Source: Daejeonella sp. JGW-45 (GTDB lineage: Bacteria; Bacteroidota; Bacteroidia; Sphingobacteriales; Sphingobacteriaceae). Taken from it: a DNA stretch of 64,000 nt. The stretch is taken from assembly GCF_029360805.1 (NCBI RefSeq), contig NZ_JARKNC010000010.1:186001-250000 (forward strand). The letters run 5' to 3'. Positions within the stretch are counted from its first letter, which is position 1. Each line of letters opens with the position of its first letter. Below are positions 15,646 through 20,186 of this stretch, piece by piece. The notes below the pieces were generated by a model that saw nothing but the letters and a program-made list of their open reading frames with translations, searched no databases and was not told where the DNA came from. A program made the position numbers and the translations under genes.

Positions 15646-17784
15646 TCATCGCTGATATCTCAACCCCATATTATATAGCATAAACGCCCACTTATCCGCC
15701 TGCTCCTCGATTATTTTGGCAGTAGGCTTGCCAGCACCGTGACCGGCATTGGTTTCAATACGGATCAGCGCCGGACTTGCACCATTGTGATACTCTTGTA
15801 AACGCGCCGCAAATTTAAATGAGTGAGCTGGTACTACGCGGTCGTCGTGATCTGCAGTAGTAATCAGCGTTGCCGGATAGGATACGCCAGGCTTTAATGC
15901 ATGATACGGTGAATATTTAATAAGGTATTCGAACATTTCCTTAGAATCTTCCGCGGTTCCATAATCGTATGCCCAACCGGCACCGGCGGTGAACTTATTA
16001 TAACGAAGCATATCCAATACTCCCACTGCGGGTAGGGCAACTTTAAACAGGTCGGGTCTTTGGCTCATCACCGCAGCTACAAGCAGCCCGCCATTCGAGC
16101 CACCCGAAAGTGCGAGATAATCTTTTGATGTGTATTTATTGCTGGTCAAATATTCAGCAGCAGCGATAAAATCGTCAAATACGTTCTGCTTATTCATTTT
16201 CGTGCCGGCCAGGTGCCATTTTTCACCATATTCGCCGCCACCACGGAGATTTGGTACCGCATAGATCCCACCCTGTTCAAGAAGTACAATATTCGAAGTG
16301 CTGAACGCAGGTGTCAGGCTTACACTGAAACCGCCGTACCCATAAAGAAGTGTGGGGTTTTTACCGTTAAGTTCGACACCCTTTTTGTGCGTAATGATCA
16401 TGGGTATCTTAGTGCCGTCCTTAGATGTATAGAATATCTGCTTGGAGACATACAGGGAAGGATCAAACGAAACGCCAGGTTTTTTATACTCCACAGACTG
16501 TCCTGAGGCAATGATATATCTGAAAATGGTTGGAGGGTAGATATAGGAATTGAACGTGTAGTACAGTTCTTTCTCCGCTTTCTTGGCGTTAAAGCCGCTG
16601 GCCGAACCCACCCCCGGGAGTGTAACAGTGCGTTCAAGTCGACCCTCCATATCATATTGCATGACCAGGGAAGTTGCATCTTTCAGATAATTAGCAAAAA
16701 TCTTCCCTCCGGCAGTACTTACATTCAATACGTTTTCCGTTTCCGGAATCAGGTCTTTCCAATTTTCGGGCGATGGGTTTGACGCGTCAACCGTCACAAC
16801 CCGGTAGTTTGGAGCATTTAAATTAGTGTATATGTAAAGCTTGCCATCGATATTATCGATCACATAGTGCTCATTATCGAAGTTATTCACGACGTTAACA
16901 ATCGGGCTTCCCGGTTTCGAGAGGTCCTGTATGTAAAGCTCATTACCGGTAGTTGATTTAGCGGCAGTAATGACTAAGAACCTGTCGTCTTCAGTAACGC
17001 CCCCACTAATATACCTCCTGGGGGTTTTGTCTCCGCCAAAAACAAGCATATCATCCGACTGCTTTGTACCGATTTGATGGAAATACAACTTATGATACTG
17101 AGTTAACCCTGAGAGTTGGCTTCCTTCGTTTGGTTTATCGTAGCTGCTGTAATAAAAGCCTTCTTTTCCCTTCCATGATAAGCCTGAAAACTTCACGTCG
17201 ATCATAGTGTCACCAACCTGTTTCAGATCGGCGGTGTTTAGCACAACTACTTTACGCCAGTCGGATCCTCCTTCGGAGAGCTGATATGCAGCCATACCGC
17301 CGTCTTTGGTGAATTCTATTCCCGCCAGCGACGTTGTAGCGTCTTTAGAAAACTTGTTAGGATCTAAGAACACCTCCGGAGTGCCTTTGTCCTTTTGCCT
17401 GTATAAAACATATTGATTTTGTAAGCCATCGTTTTTGTAGAAATAGGTGTAGGCTCCTTCCTTAAACGGAGCGGTGAACTTTTCGTAATTCCATAATGTT
17501 TCCAGCCGCTTCTTGATATCAGAGCGGAATGGAATTTTAGACAAATAGTTTTGTGTGACCTTGTTTTCTGCTTCAACCCAGGCTTTTGTATCCGCGGCCC
17601 GGTCGTCCTCCAGCCACCGGTATGGATCTTTAACCGGAGTGCCGAAATACGTGTCTGTAACTTCAACTTTTTTTGTTTTAGGGTAGTTCATTGTATTTGG
17701 ATCGGGACTGGTATGCTGGGCAGTGGCGTTGTATGAACTCATCAAAGCAAAGCCTAGCAGGCTGAATGTTTTTATTGGTTTCAT
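15646..17784 (-). CDS. Prolyl oligopeptidase family serine peptidase (S9)
   Basis: Exported peptidase of 712 residues that cleaves after proline in short peptides. After a signal peptide (about NATAQ) comes the N-terminal S9 motif (PKTKKVEVTDTYFGTPVKDPYRWLED is described here only by its YRWLED core), then a seven-bladed propeller (about 80-430). The alpha/beta hydrolase domain has the nucleophile elbow LSGGSNGGLL, the acid in TTADHDDRVVPAHS and the His in NAGHGAGK, so the triad is complete. A TAAATTTG -7 element is 17 nt upstream (17802-17809). Confidence 0.93.
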   Translation of the reverse strand: MKPIKTFSLLGFALMSSYNATAQHTSPDPNTMNYPKTKKVEVTDTYFGTPVKDPYRWLEDDRAADTKAWVEAENKVTQNYLSKIPFRSDIKKRLETLWNYEKFTAPFKEGAYTYFYKNDGLQNQYVLYRQKDKGTPEVFLDPNKFSKDATTSLAGIEFTKDGGMAAYQLSEGGSDWRKVVVLNTADLKQVGDTMIDVKFSGLSWKGKEGFYYSSYDKPNEGSQLSGLTQYHKLYFHQIGTKQSDDMLVFGGDKTPRRYISGGVTEDDRFLVITAAKSTTGNELYIQDLSKPGSPIVNVVNNFDNEHYVIDNIDGKLYIYTNLNAPNYRVVTVDASNPSPENWKDLIPETENVLNVSTAGGKIFANYLKDATSLVMQYDMEGRLERTVTLPGVGSASGFNAKKAEKELYYTFNSYIYPPTIFRYIIASGQSVEYKKPGVSFDPSLYVSKQIFYTSKDGTKIPMIITHKKGVELNGKNPTLLYGYGGFSVSLTPAFSTSNIVLLEQGGIYAVPNLRGGGEYGEKWHLAGTKMNKQNVFDDFIAAAEYLTSNKYTSKDYLALSGGSNGGLLVAAVMSQRPDLFKVALPAVGVLDMLRYNKFTAGAGWAYDYGTAEDSKEMFEYLIKYSPYHALKPGVSYPATLITTADHDDRVVPAHSFKFAARLQEYHNGASPALIRIETNAGHGAGKPTAKIIEEQADKWAFMLYNMGLRYQR

Positions 17785-17801
17785 AGCAATTGGTTAAGTA
17801 C

Positions 17802-17809
17802 CAAATTTA
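17802..17809 (-). promoter_or_regulatory. Candidate -7 element of the S9 peptidase gene
   Basis: Minus-strand TAAATTTG, an exact TAnnTTTG match, 17 nt before the ATG, giving a very short leader. No -33 TTG at the right spacing. Confidence 0.35.
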
Positions 17810-17870
17810 AGAAAAGCAAGGAATAAAAGGCGTCACCGATTCTGCAACATTCGCGGCACCGGCTTAAAAC

Positions 17871-17897
17871 AAAAAAGCCCCTCATTTCTGAAGAGCT
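17871..17897 (-). terminator. tRNA-type terminator, copy 1 (after the GIY-YIG gene)
   Basis: On the minus strand AGCTCTTCA-GAAA-TGAGGGGCT followed by T6. Nearly identical hairpins recur at 18505-18531 and 18646-18671, the last directly after tRNA-Asp. Confidence 0.7.
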
Positions 17898-17899
17898 TT

Positions 17900-17962
17900 G
17901 CTAATGGTTCGAAACTCGAACCCGTCCCAACCGAAGGTCGGGATGACAGGACGGCATTCTAA
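17900..17962 (-). pseudogene. 3' half of a split tRNA-Asp-like element
   Basis: This segment matches the left part of the intact tRNA-Asp-like element at 18534-18618 with only two mismatches (acceptor 3' strand, T-arm, extra hairpin, CTGTCAT anticodon loop). The match stops at CTAA (17959-17962). The missing 5' half lies at 18451-18476, beyond the GIY-YIG gene. Confidence 0.65.
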
Positions 17963-18243
17963 TCAACTGCGCTAGATTCAAAACTGGACAAATAATTCCT
18001 GCTAGATCTTACCAGTGTTTGTATCTGTTTATGGCTGTACTTCTTCAATACTTTTTCTCTTTTTAACCCGTCACGTTTGGATATATGAAACTCGAGATAC
18101 ACTATTGCCCAAGGAAATTTGTTTCTGGTATAAGTTGACTCGCCCTTATTATGTTGCCGTAATCTTCTTAAAGGATTTTCTGTAAACCCTTTATAGTAAC
18201 TCCCATCCCTGAGGGACTGTAAGACGTAAATGTAGAATGCCAC
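17959..18243 (-). CDS. GIY-YIG nuclease-family protein
   Basis: Single-domain GIY-YIG protein of about 95 residues. The core is complete: FYIYVLQS (GIY-like strand), DGSYYKGFT (YIG-like strand), LRRLRQHN with the catalytic Arg region, and REKVLKKY with the conserved Glu. Most stand-alone family members are uncharacterised. A GTG at 18243 gives the usual family start just before AFYIYVLQ; an ATG at 18303 would add 20 atypical residues. The stop codon TAG lies exactly in the CTAA repeat where the split tRNA-Asp-like element resumes, and the last codons read D-arm-like DNA. Inference: the gene entered this tRNA locus as a small cassette. Confidence 0.8.
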   Translation of the reverse strand: MAFYIYVLQSLRDGSYYKGFTENPLRRLRQHNKGESTYTRNKFPWAIVYLEFHISKRDGLKREKVLKKYSHKQIQTLVRSSRNYLSSFESSAVD

Positions 18244-18450
18244 CACAATTGATCTTTGGAACAAATATGAAGGAAATCTTAACGTTTTTATAAGTAGGGT
18301 CAAGATACTTATTCTGCGGTTGAGCTCGAACCGAGCCGCATCTATGTAAAAGGCAGAGTTTTGAACTCGTGGTCCGTAGTTCTAATGTCTTTGATCTTTT
18401 AATAACTGTTATATCGCATAGCAACTTAAGCTTTTAGCCCCGAATACATA
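17963..18450. mobile_element. 488-bp segment with GIY-YIG gene inserted in a tRNA-Asp-like element
   Basis: CTAA occurs at both ends (17959-17962 and 18451-18454), as in a 4-bp target duplication. Left of it is the 3' half and right of it the 5' half of the tRNA-Asp-like element that is continuous at 18534-18618. The right part of the segment (about 18369-18440) resembles the tRNA-Asp start and its upstream flank at 18738-18811 (for example GTCCGTAGT and CAGCAACTTA-like stretches). No transposase and no clear terminal inverted repeats are seen. Insertion is inferred from the comparison; rearrangement of nested duplications is the alternative. Confidence 0.45.
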
Positions 18451-18476
18451 CTAACTCTAGGTCACGATGCCATTGC
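18451..18476 (-). pseudogene. 5' half of the split tRNA-Asp-like element
   Basis: Matches 18593-18618 of the unsplit element with two mismatches over 26 bases, including the acceptor-like GCAATGG. It starts exactly at CTAA, where the 3' half at 17900-17962 ends. Confidence 0.6.
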
Positions 18477-18504
18477 GGGGGCTTCAGTAAAATGTCTTAA
18501 ATGC

Positions 18505-18531
18505 AAAAAAGCCCCTCATTTCAGAAGAGCT
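18505..18531 (-). terminator. tRNA-type terminator, copy 2
   Basis: Same hairpin as 18646-18671 with one stem change (A at 18523). It follows the unsplit tRNA-Asp-like element. Confidence 0.6.
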
Positions 18532-18533
18532 TT

Positions 18534-18618
18534 GCTAATGGTTCGGAACTCGAACCCGTCCCAACCGAAGGTCGGGATGACAGGGCGGCATTCTAACTAT
18601 AGGTCACGATACCATTGC
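18534..18618 (-). pseudogene. Unsplit tRNA-Asp-like element (degenerate tRNA)
   Basis: On the minus strand it keeps the tRNA-Asp run GTTAGAATGCCGCCCTGTCA with anticodon GTC and a T-loop-like GTTCGAGT. The 3' side of the anticodon stem is lost and replaced by a hairpin (CCCGAC-CTTCG-GTTGGG). Its ends, GCAATGG and CCATTAGC, can still pair with one bulge. It is flanked by copies of the tRNA terminator. It is unlikely to be a working tRNA; it may be a relic or a tRNA-like RNA. Confidence 0.6.
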
Positions 18619-18645
18619 GGGGCTTCAGTAAAATGTCTTAAAACA

Positions 18646-18671
18646 GAAAAGCCCCTCATTTCTGAAGAGCT
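18646..18671 (-). terminator. Terminator of tRNA-Asp
   Basis: Minus-strand stem AGCTCTTCA / TGAGGGGCT with loop GAAA, followed by a short T run, 5 bp after the tRNA-Asp 3' end. Confidence 0.75.
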
Positions 18672-18676
18672 TTTTG

Positions 18677-18750
18677 CGGACCGGACGGGACTCGAACCCG
18701 CGACCTCCGCCGTGACAGGGCGGCATTCTAACCAACTGAACTACCGGTCC
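18677..18750 (-). tRNA. tRNA-Asp (GTC)
   Basis: Complete 74-nt cloverleaf: acceptor GGACCGG/CCGGTCC, D-arm GTTC...GAAT, anticodon stem CCGCC/GGCGG with loop CTGTCAC (anticodon GTC), and T-arm GCGGG-TTCGAGT-CCCGT. Discriminator is G. CCA is not encoded. It is the only intact tRNA-Asp in the locus; degenerate relatives lie to its left. Confidence 0.95.
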
Positions 18751-18866
18751 GTAGTATTAGTATTCTTAATTTTTAATAGTCGCCGTATCGCACAGCAACT
18801 TAGTTTTTACTATATCTGCTTTTCAAGCTAATCCTGAAAAGCTCAGGAAAGATACAATTTATTTTG

Positions 18867-18939
18867 TGATCCCGCTGGGATTCGAACCCAGGACCACTAC
18901 ATTAAAAGTGTAATGCTCTACCAGCTGAGCTACGGAATC
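18867..18939 (-). tRNA. tRNA-Lys (TTT)
   Basis: 73-nt cloverleaf: acceptor GATTCCG/CGGGATC (one T-G pair), D-arm GCTC...GAGC, anticodon loop ACTTTTAAT with anticodon TTT, and T-loop TTCGAAT. Discriminator is A. It lies upstream of tRNA-Asp on the same strand and may be co-transcribed. Confidence 0.93.
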
Positions 18940-19112
18940 ATTATTAGAACTACTTTTGAGATGCTTTTTCTTAAAAGTGAGGCAAATATACGGCAATAAC
19001 CCTTACAGTGCAAATAATAAAAAGCTTAATTTGTTGCCAGACCTTAATCTCCTAATATTCAATCAAAAACAATGAATTTTCGGAATAGTTTTGCCTGATC
19101 TCCCTGTATTGA

Positions 19113-20186
19113 TCAGGCAAATGAGCCTTCCTTCATCTTTTCCGCATTCTCTGCAAGCTGTAATTCGTCGATGATTTCCTGGATGTCGCCGTTCATTACG
19201 TTCGGAAGATTGTAAATTGTAAGCCCGATCCTATGCTCGGTAACCCGGCCTTGAGGGTAGTTATATGTCCTGATCTTCGCCGACCTGTCGCCGGTGGCCA
19301 CCATAGTCTTGCGTTTCTTCGAAGTTTCCTCCAGCATTTTTGCATGCTCAAGCTCATAAATCCGGCTTCGCAGAACAGCGAACGCCTTATCAAAATTCTT
19401 AAGCTGTGATTTCTGGTCCTGACACTGGGCCACGATGCCGGTTGGTAAGTGAGTTAAACGCACAGCAGAATAGGTTGTATTAACCGATTGCCCGCCCGGT
19501 CCTGAGGAACAGAACAGATCTTTTCGTACATCATTCATGCTGATCTGAACATCGAACTCATCTGCTTCAGGCAAAACAACAACGGAGGCTGCTGAGGTAT
19601 GCACGCGGCCGGCAGTTTCAGTGTCGGGAACCCGCTGCACCCGGTGGACGCCTGATTCGTATTTCAACTGTCCATATGCATCCTCGCCGTTTACATTAAA
19701 AACAACCTCTTTATAACCTCCCGCAGTGCCCTCGGTAACATCAACCACCTCCATTCTCCATCCTTTACGTTCACAGAAACGGGTATACATACGATAAAGG
19801 TCGCCGGCAAAAAGAGCCGCTTCATCGCCACCAGTACCGCCTCGGATCTCCACAATAGCATTCTTGCCATCTTCAGGATCCTGAGGGATAAGCATCATCC
19901 GGATCTTCTCCTCTAACTCCTCCTGTCGGGGAATGAGTTCTTCAAGTTCCATCTTAGCCATCTCCCGCATCTCCTCGTCCTTTTCAGTGGCGAGCAAGCC
20001 TTTGTTGGCTTCGATGTTACTCACAACAAGACTGTAGACCTTATATTCGTCCACAATTTTGGTAAGGTCCTTATATTCTTTATTGAGCTGGGCAAAACGC
20101 TTCATATCACTCATGGTAGCCGGGTTGCTTAGTTCCCGCTCCACATCCTGCCAGCGCTCTTTTATTAATTCTAGTTTATCTAACAT
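19113..20186 (-). CDS. prfA: Peptide chain release factor 1
   Basis: Recognises UAA and UAG in the ribosomal A site and releases the peptide. The GGQ catalytic motif is at residues 231-233 ([10 protein letters not shown]). The codon-reading tripeptide is P-D-T at 187-189 ([10 protein letters not shown]), the P-x-T form of RF1 rather than the SPF of RF2. The N-terminal helical domain and length (357) are normal. It is a single gene with an exact TATTTTTG -7 element 44 nt upstream, divergent from nothing and next to tRNA genes. Confidence 0.97.

Follow-up and report, generated by a model that had tools for sequence, protein, structure and literature searches.

Integrative elements and genomic islands that enter at tRNA genes keep the tRNA intact and carry a partial tRNA copy at their other end. 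In the repetitive extragenic palindromic (REP) and REPIN repeats with REP-associated tyrosine transposases (RAYTs), the gene of a nuclease, an HUH (Y1) transposase, is flanked by palindromic repeats, and an endonuclease open reading frame (ORF) of Allomyces mitochondria brings its own copy of a gene end. Among GIY-YIG proteins, SegB of phages T4 and T6 is a free-standing homing endonuclease that cuts inside tRNA genes and drives tandem repeats of a 718-bp unit of tRNA-Tyr and segB via homologous recombination (PMC13096335). According to the available part of that source, segB co-localizes with tRNAs in phages and shows no apparent isotype preference (PMC13096335). SLX1-like GIY-YIG proteins have also been classified (PMC1564403). 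Here we describe a locus in a 64,000-nucleotide stretch of Daejeonella sp. JGW-45 (contig NZ_JARKNC010000010.1, positions 186,001 to 250,000; hereafter the window), in which a small stand-alone GIY-YIG gene lies among broken copies of a tRNA-Asp gene. By analogy, SegB appears to be its nearest functional precedent.

We consider it probable that the window holds a decayed member of a set of selfish, homing-like modules that are widespread in Bacteroidota, are each specific for one tRNA gene, and spread by recombination that a nuclease starts. The family to which this visibly decayed locus belongs is large and apparently undescribed. The literature matches listed, with preprints and most subscription journals outside their coverage, contained no description of such a nuclease/broken-tRNA arrangement in bacterial chromosomes and no role for small GIY-YIG genes in Bacteroidota.

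All parts of the locus lie on the minus strand, in the order tRNA-Lys, leader, T, terminator, T'a, terminator, T'b, decayed leader and tRNA, GIY-YIG gene, T'c and terminator, where T is the intact tRNA gene, T' a broken copy of it and, below, G the GIY-YIG gene. The intact tRNA-Asp (GTC; 18676-18750) has its leader at 18751-18810 and a terminator-like hairpin at 18637-18673, the latter delimited by repeat comparison; it adjoins the element and is part of the same duplication. The broken copy T'a (18534-18622) consists of tRNA positions 19-38 (T19-38, 18578-18597), a palindrome, and T51-65 (18544-18558), and T'c (17900-17974) of T13-38 (17944-17969), a palindrome, and T51-61 (17914-17924). In both, the same 19-nt palindrome, TCCCGACC-TTC-GGTTGGGA with one G-T pair, stands in for tRNA positions 39-50 (18559-18577 in T'a and 17925-17943 in T'c), and each broken copy is accompanied by its own copy of the tRNA-Asp terminator (copy 2 at 18507-18533 and copy 3 at 17863-17899). 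T'b (18451-18480) is the 5' part of a further broken copy, and at 18362-18428 the tRNA-Asp leader and the 5' end of the tRNA recur in decayed form, with repeat matches of 71% and 78%. Neither ARAGORN nor Rfam called a tRNA in the T'a region. The stand-alone GIY-YIG gene (UPF0213/SLX1-like) occupies 17959-18303. Upstream of the site, tRNA-Lys (TTT; 18866-18939) is a conserved neighbor, the Lys-Asp order being found in 17 same-genus genomes.

An earlier note on this DNA had described a continuous tRNA-like element at 18534-18618 whose two halves, each ending exactly at CTAA, recur on either side of a 488-bp segment with the GIY-YIG gene, and had read the whole as an occupied and an empty site side by side. 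The repeats are real: 17870-17962 and 18504-18596 are 97% identical across 93 nt, far above what chance would give, and 18451-18476, the supposed 5' half within T'b, repeats 18593-18618 with two mismatches. The gene is likewise complete, its frame being open and its stop codon lying in the left CTAA. These repeats were misread, and the intact tRNA-Asp and the extra copies were overlooked. The "continuous" element is itself the palindrome-broken copy T'a, and the left copy goes on as tRNA-Asp to 17969 by BLAST (T13-38, 92%) and to 17974 without gaps (87%). Since this match extends past CTAA, the last GIY-YIG codons and the stop lie in tRNA-derived sequence. Both CTAA motifs are the TTAG of the tRNA-Asp D-loop, and a target-site duplication was rejected on that ground. 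It is very improbable that a 488-bp homing cassette was inserted between CTAA repeats of a tRNA-like element with the empty site alongside; both halves do match the unsplit copy, but the left copy runs on, the decayed tRNA leader and 5' end lie inside the segment together with the gene, and relatives show other edges. In the form proposed, such a CTAA-bounded cassette is refuted. The two "halves" are partial copies that a tandem duplication of a unit of tRNA, nuclease gene and broken tRNA would explain.

We compared the Lys-Asp site in 20 same-genus genomes, our own included, of which 17 gave a readable locus (G014 showed tRNA-Lys only, and G011 and G017 gave no match; G and L numbers denote genomes and loci). 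Three loci were occupied, G010 and G018 were intermediate, and 12 had neither the gene nor a broken tRNA-Asp, empty referring to the stretch read, which extends some 450 bp beyond T. In G010 a T' lies between tRNA-Lys and T and a GIY-YIG gene 2.5 kb away, and in G018 a scar is found, with T' on both sides of T and no gene. Thus, occupied, empty and scarred alleles of one site exist within the genus. The closest relatives of the window protein, in G001, G009 and G010 (57-58% identity), are all encoded beside tRNA-Asp sequence, and a palindrome-broken tRNA-Asp copy comes after each gene. In G001 T and its terminator are immediately followed by the gene, which stands between the intact tRNA-Asp and the palindrome-broken copy, and a Segetibacter gene is placed directly between the same two parts. 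An extra broken copy separates T from the gene in G009, and in G010 just the tRNA-Asp 3' end is found directly upstream of the gene, the intact tRNA being 2.5 kb off. The earlier note had named a gene without split tRNA-like halves in related genomes as grounds for refutation; the relatives keep the broken copy, yet it is not split by the gene. Besides, in 7 of the 17 loci (L089 and L091 to L096, from G007, G016, G008, G002, G006, G003 and G019), the interval from tRNA-Lys to tRNA-Asp contains a hairpin-like stretch and then part of a tRNA-Lys 3' end, with no GIY-YIG gene in the stretch read.

The window protein has at most 114 amino acids. Its frame is open from a TTG at 18303 to a TAG stop at 17959-17961 inside T'c, the likely start being a GTG at 18246 or 18243, and the interval from the tRNAs to the left broken copy contains no frame longer than 114 amino acids. 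In Pfam it matches only the GIY-YIG family (PF01541, E 3.7e-14) and the overlapping T5orf172 model, and NCBIfam gave no match, so that these two databases revealed no extra DNA-binding region beyond the GIY-YIG domain; SegB-type enzymes presumably have such a region, and the window protein matches the domain alone. It keeps the residues that are invariant in the family alignment A1 (including Y, Y, G, R, H and N), which we take to have catalytic roles, and a near-invariant E. A profile of A1 matched the solved structures 1zg2 (E 1.8e-14) and 1ywl (2.3e-13) and SLX1 chains (4.4e-8 to 4.5e-7), which places UPF0213 proteins and SLX1, a structure-specific endonuclease subunit according to its PDB entries, as the apparent nearest solved relatives of the family. 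A group I intron in the tRNA was rejected, as Rfam gave no match to one in 17500-19200 of the window (E up to 10), in 10 loci (gathering threshold) or in 36 loci (E up to 0.01). A phage or plasmid origin was also rejected: 20 phage and 6 plasmid records matched, all below 60% identity and the listed ones at 40.3% at most. The JGW-45 genome contains five GIY-YIG matches, three of them small, and these three are at tRNA-Asp (the window), at tRNA-Arg-CCT (L003) and at a partial tRNA-Met (L001).

The association with tRNA genes extends well beyond the genus. Sample 1 comprised all 81 matches of the window protein in 60 genomes (our own and 59 relatives). Within 500 bp of a called tRNA or transfer-messenger RNA (tmRNA) gene lay 44 of them, 43 on the same strand and 36 downstream, whereas 202 of 20,000 random places were that close (1%; 400 kb from 18 of the genomes). 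The targets cover eleven isotypes (17 anticodons) and tmRNA. Small GIY-YIG genes of this type abound in Bacteroidota, with matches to profile A1 at an E of 1e-9 or lower in 91 of 148 genomes, and sample 2 took the best match of the 29 highest-scoring of these 91, our own excluded (L193 to L221, with L205 and L208 duplicating loci of sample 1); 26 of the 29 lay within 500 bp of a tRNA, all on the same strand. Of the named loci from an alignment of the Asp lineage, 5 of 16 in Bacteroidota were within 500 bp of a tRNA as against 1 of 43 elsewhere, four of the 16 having less than 160 bp of upstream sequence and three being G001, G009 and G010 again. The single case outside Bacteroidota (L146, Candidatus Doudnabacteria) has its GIY-YIG gene 138 bp downstream of tRNA-Ala, and no broken tRNA-Ala copy is evident there beyond a weak 18-nt match. 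Downstream of tmRNA, GIY-YIG genes were seen in L020, L053 and L232, the proteins of the first two clustering and that of L232 standing apart; tmRNA genes thus seem to be targets as well. An Rfam scan for other RNAs in 36 loci, mostly unlinked to tRNAs, found one small RNA above the cut-off, in L027 and distant from the gene, and four sub-threshold matches in L069.

Broken copies of the locus's own tRNA accompany most of these genes. After exclusion of tmRNA, opposite-strand and repeated loci and of second matches per locus, 65 linked loci (40 from sample 1 and 25 from sample 2) were searched 600 bp to each side with called tRNAs masked, and 52 of them (28 and 24) contained a broken copy, as against 2 of 325 random windows; in 47 of the 52, the gene lay between the copy and T. 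A hairpin at the break, defined as a perfect stem of at least 6 bp with a loop of up to 8 within 30 nt of the broken edge, was present in 36 of 52 loci, where 7.8 were expected from shuffled windows and 7.4 from random places. A looser count of hairpins within 45 nt of any tRNA-piece end gave 45 of 52 (control, 296 of 2,000) and includes terminators past the tRNA 3' end. Break positions recur for several tRNAs. In tRNA-Asp the break 38|51 was found in the window's genus, G058, G107, Segetibacter sp. 3557_3, a Cryomorphaceae genome and a Saprospiraceae genome; tRNA-Asn breaks at 25|36 in G012, G056 and G041, from three families, and at 57|61 in G091 (L201); tRNA-Arg-CCT breaks mostly at 17 or 21, tRNA-Met at 34-37|47-48 in three genomes, and tRNA-Val mostly after 28-30. 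The unmasked table of tRNA pairs holds false pairs, in which a foreign tRNA model falls on an intact tRNA, and was used row by row for pairs of the same tRNA only. The palindrome sequences differ among lineages at one tRNA position. In nine T' copies of tRNA-Asp from five same-genus genomes, all 72 palindrome cells pair (shuffled mean, 87.5%; none of 500 shuffles as high). Extra broken tRNA-Asp copies upstream of the intact one occur in three genomes (1674-1849 in L135, 1754-1819 in L142 and, in gene-strand coordinates, 439-600 in L017), and in all of them the similarity ends at tRNA position 60, in the T-loop. In L238, ARAGORN named a palindrome-bearing broken tRNA-Val copy (651-731) a tRNA-Lys, and public genome annotations may list such copies as unusual tRNA genes.

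Another reading is a role at the RNA level, in which the nuclease would act on tRNA or on T' RNA in a system useful to the host (regulation, quality control, phage defense or toxin-antitoxin) and T' would be a decoy or regulator. The window T' copies do keep their terminators and a paired hairpin, T'a folds with a z-score of -2.4 against shuffles, and in L013 the gene begins immediately behind the tRNA, with a gap of 12 nt in L023, so that it could be co-transcribed with the tRNA. We regard such a system as rather unlikely nonetheless: T'c reaches a z-score of just -1.7, T' often lacks much of the tRNA 5' or 3' part, the closest relatives of solved structure are UPF0213 and the nuclease SLX1, and a selfish element is the better fit to the tandem arrays of like units described below and to the patchy presence. 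The idea of T' as a stable, structured RNA was not retained, the two z-scores not being decisive.

The units also form tandem arrays. We fetched 20 array places, chosen for regularly spaced neighboring matches, and 17 had a called tRNA or tmRNA in the stretch. The spacing of full units was mostly 315-516 bp (720 in one array), and these units each hold one GIY-YIG gene and no integrase. Both mirror layouts, T-[G-T']n and [T'-G]n-T, were found: L224 has an intact tRNA-Leu followed by three 345-bp [G-T'] units, and L223 three 323-bp [T'-G] units followed by an intact tRNA-Ser. L222 consists of eight units at about 365 bp, with no intact tRNA in the fetched stretch. In 11 of the 14 arrays read in detail, one intact tRNA stands at one end. 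The Segetibacter locus L135 reads T', T', T, G, T' and then at least the start of a second G. In L012, L025 and L053, T' is followed by a repeat of the first 14-15 nt of the gene, which we take to be left over from array units; that the element has a fixed border at this point within the gene was rejected because L041, L064 and L067 carry a longer or whole second gene after T'. The genome G107 contains 21 matches, with 13 GIY-YIG copies in three arrays (L222, L228 and L236), two of them with an intact tRNA at one end.

The protein lineages are largely sorted by target. In a tree of 81 tRNA-linked proteins, from which six loci repeating others were left out, labels of isotype (14 isotypes and tmRNA, 15 in all) required 27 changes, with a minimum of 14, a shuffled mean of 58.2 and a lowest value of 53 in 200 shuffles, and labels of host family (23) required 52, with a shuffled mean of 55.3 and a lowest value of 51. 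As far as these alignments tell, protein identity follows the tRNA isotype and hardly the host family, and the two counts point indirectly to horizontal spread tied to the target. This bears on the notion of passive hitch-hiking, in which tRNAs were duplicated in tandem and decayed, dispersed palindromes fell into them, and GIY-YIG genes settled at insertion-tolerant tRNA flanks. Palindromes of the same make as in the tRNA class are in fact dispersed (105 of the TCCCGA..TCGGGA type in G043 and 64 in G032, only this general type having been counted), the window locus is visibly decayed, and G018 has broken copies without a gene. Against passive settling stand the lineages that track isotype instead of host and the recurring break positions, and many T' are near perfect except for the insert (T17-73 at 100% in L003 and T36-75 at 100% in L051, as found by BLAST, which favors well-preserved pieces), so that the insert there is not late decay. 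We consider hitch-hiking unlikely.

A first tree of 80 cores (L050 left out) placed 25 of the 31 rows without a tRNA in one branch with a support of 93, sister to the tRNA class. In eight loci of this sister clade (L027, L032, L048, L052, L059, L065, L066 and L078), the GIY-YIG gene lies among palindromic CTTCGA..CTCAG repeats, which are absent from the 400-kb control; in L027 and L066 the repeats are inverted and flank the gene on both sides. Counts of CTTCGA-N4-CTCAG on both strands were 27-54 in G020, G031, G039, G052 and G057, 19 in G041 and 6 in G044, all of which carry a CTTCGA-flanked GIY-YIG gene, and 0-5 in 12 of the 21 genomes searched. At least 11 inverted CTTCGA pairs, 28-40 bp apart, are found in G039. 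Three other GIY-YIG genes without a tRNA (L068, L077 and L079) are flanked on both sides by repeats of the TCATTGCGG.., CCTGAGGAACGAAGGAACT and CGCTTCAGTCGAGATGACG type. The CTTCGA repeats speak for a REP/RAYT-like system, in which the palindrome would be what moves, with the GIY-YIG protein acting as its transposase-like partner and tRNA genes as one preferred landing site. On the other hand, G001 (62) and G032 (48) are rich in CTTCGA repeats with no GIY-YIG locus of that flank seen, and the differing tRNA-class palindromes at one tRNA position look as if the tRNA context were the specific part. As an account of the tRNA class, such a system appears quite unlikely to us. In another setting, the GIY-YIG domain of L050 (G041:C65) lies in frame within a long ORF that, we assume, resembles the HsdR subunit of type I restriction enzymes; an SLX1-like GIY-YIG domain recently inserted into an HsdR gene has been described in Methylococcus (PMC1564403).

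Returning to selfish modules specific for one tRNA gene, we propose that the minimal unit, mostly 315-516 bp in arrays, would be a GIY-YIG gene G with T', a tRNA copy broken by a short insert that is usually a palindrome, placed next to the intact gene T of the same tRNA. A single homologous crossover between the chromosomal T and the T' of an incoming [G-T'] unit would give T-[G-T'] if it fell 3' of the palindrome and [T'-G]-T if it fell 5' of it. Either crossover would leave one intact T, and the host would therefore keep its tRNA. Arrays may then form via unequal crossover or repeated events. Such a crossover model, which we prefer to gene conversion, would account for the two layouts, the retained intact tRNA, the single broken junction and the arrays, and does not specify the cut site. 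The putative nuclease may start recombination by a break at the position marked by the palindrome. It might cut the T' palindrome itself, as a cruciform or hairpin, or it might cut the intact T as in classical homing, with the palindrome making T' uncuttable. We slightly prefer the former because T is not recoded (seen for tRNA-Asp only), because of the kinship with SLX1, and because palindromes also lie beside the sister clade. Each protein lineage would be largely specific for one tRNA and spread among host families. As in free-standing homing endonuclease genes, the nuclease domain is intact with the expected residues, and occupied and unoccupied alleles of one site exist; by analogy, the locus would be a free-standing homing-type element, with homing as its most likely way of working. 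The earlier suggestion that stand-alone GIY-YIG genes are mobile at tRNA loci without a transposase thus gains strong support by association, from tRNA proximity, the broken neighboring copy, arrays, isotype-specific lineages, and occupied, empty and scarred sites, from which we infer the movement itself.

A number of points weigh against our proposal. Among the matches of sample 1, 37 of 81 are not near a called tRNA, 13 of the 65 linked loci have no broken copy within 600 bp, and 16 of the 52 loci with one have no perfect hairpin at the break; these 16 include imperfect palindromes, such as the window's own with its G-T pair, and other-tRNA loci in which no palindrome is evident. Both searches began from tRNA-linked proteins, and the rate in sample 2 (26 of 29) is not unbiased. 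"Called" does not always mean intact, as ARAGORN calls a few broken copies tRNAs (L013, L064, L238 and L241). Break positions vary in tRNA-Ser and tRNA-Leu, and differ within tRNA-Asp (41|51 in G031, 51|60 in L195 and 50|59 in L204) and tRNA-Asn (57|61). In the pairing test, 2 of 8 pairs were changed on both sides, by this one measure no better than shuffles (469 of 500), because the rows fall into two sequence classes. Three arrays break the rule of one intact tRNA at one end: L231 has it between genes, L238 has two identical intact tRNA-Val, and L241 has the insert in one of two called tRNA-Ser. Many of the genomes are drafts, and arrays may be mis-assembled. The trees were built on about 80 columns and leave many forks open, and the Ser-TGA proteins do not form a group (6 changes for 6 rows). 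Furthermore, an enzyme that cuts the intact T should cut its own genome, and the T beside the element is nearly identical to the T of 8 of the 12 empty genomes, the anticodon stem differing in the other 4; a recoded, cleavage-resistant T, considered for tRNA-Asp only, was accordingly dismissed.

Modules of this kind, selfish and specific for one tRNA gene, would explain the number of small GIY-YIG genes in Bacteroidota, their location beside tRNAs and the many broken tRNA copies. They would also amount to a minimal mobile system in which every lineage has a short address that is known, and would make it testable how a selfish nuclease targets an essential gene without killing its host. More tentatively, and with doubt prevailing, they may represent a mobile element of a new class, in which a minimal SLX1-like GIY-YIG nuclease is paired with a palindrome-broken tRNA copy, with one tRNA or tmRNA per lineage, entry by recombination that keeps the tRNA intact, and tandem amplification, the palindrome serving as a hairpin substrate and the tRNA flanks as the address, while the sister clade drives dispersed palindromic repeats. 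If so, one enzyme family would underlie both the tRNA-bound modules and the REP-like repeats of Bacteroidota.

The modules share traits with several known systems. They resemble tRNA-targeting integrative elements in the intact tRNA and the partial copy, and differ in the absence of an integrase from the array units, the frequent palindrome in the partial copy and the mirror-symmetric tandem layouts. As in REP/RAYT systems, palindromes flank the gene (36 of 52 tRNA-class loci and 8 sister-clade loci), but a GIY-YIG protein takes the place of the HUH (Y1) transposase and the palindrome lies inside a tRNA copy. The Allomyces endonuclease ORF is likewise an element that restores the function of its host gene while the displaced fragment remains, although the gene is there a protein gene in a mitochondrion with no palindrome-broken tRNA. 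UPF0213/SLX1-like proteins (PDB 1zg2 and 1ywl; SLX1) constitute the sequence family of the nuclease, whereas the available part of their classification makes no link to tRNA genes (PMC1564403) and only the one named relative in 43 outside Bacteroidota lies within 500 bp of a tRNA. With SegB, the modules have in common a GIY-YIG gene beside tRNA genes and tandem repeats of tRNA and nuclease; SegB belongs to phages and the modules to chromosomes, their lineages are largely isotype specific, and the available part of the SegB report mentions no palindrome-broken tRNA copy (PMC13096335). The locus described here may thus provide a chromosomal parallel to the recently reported SegB-driven amplification of tRNA genes in phages.

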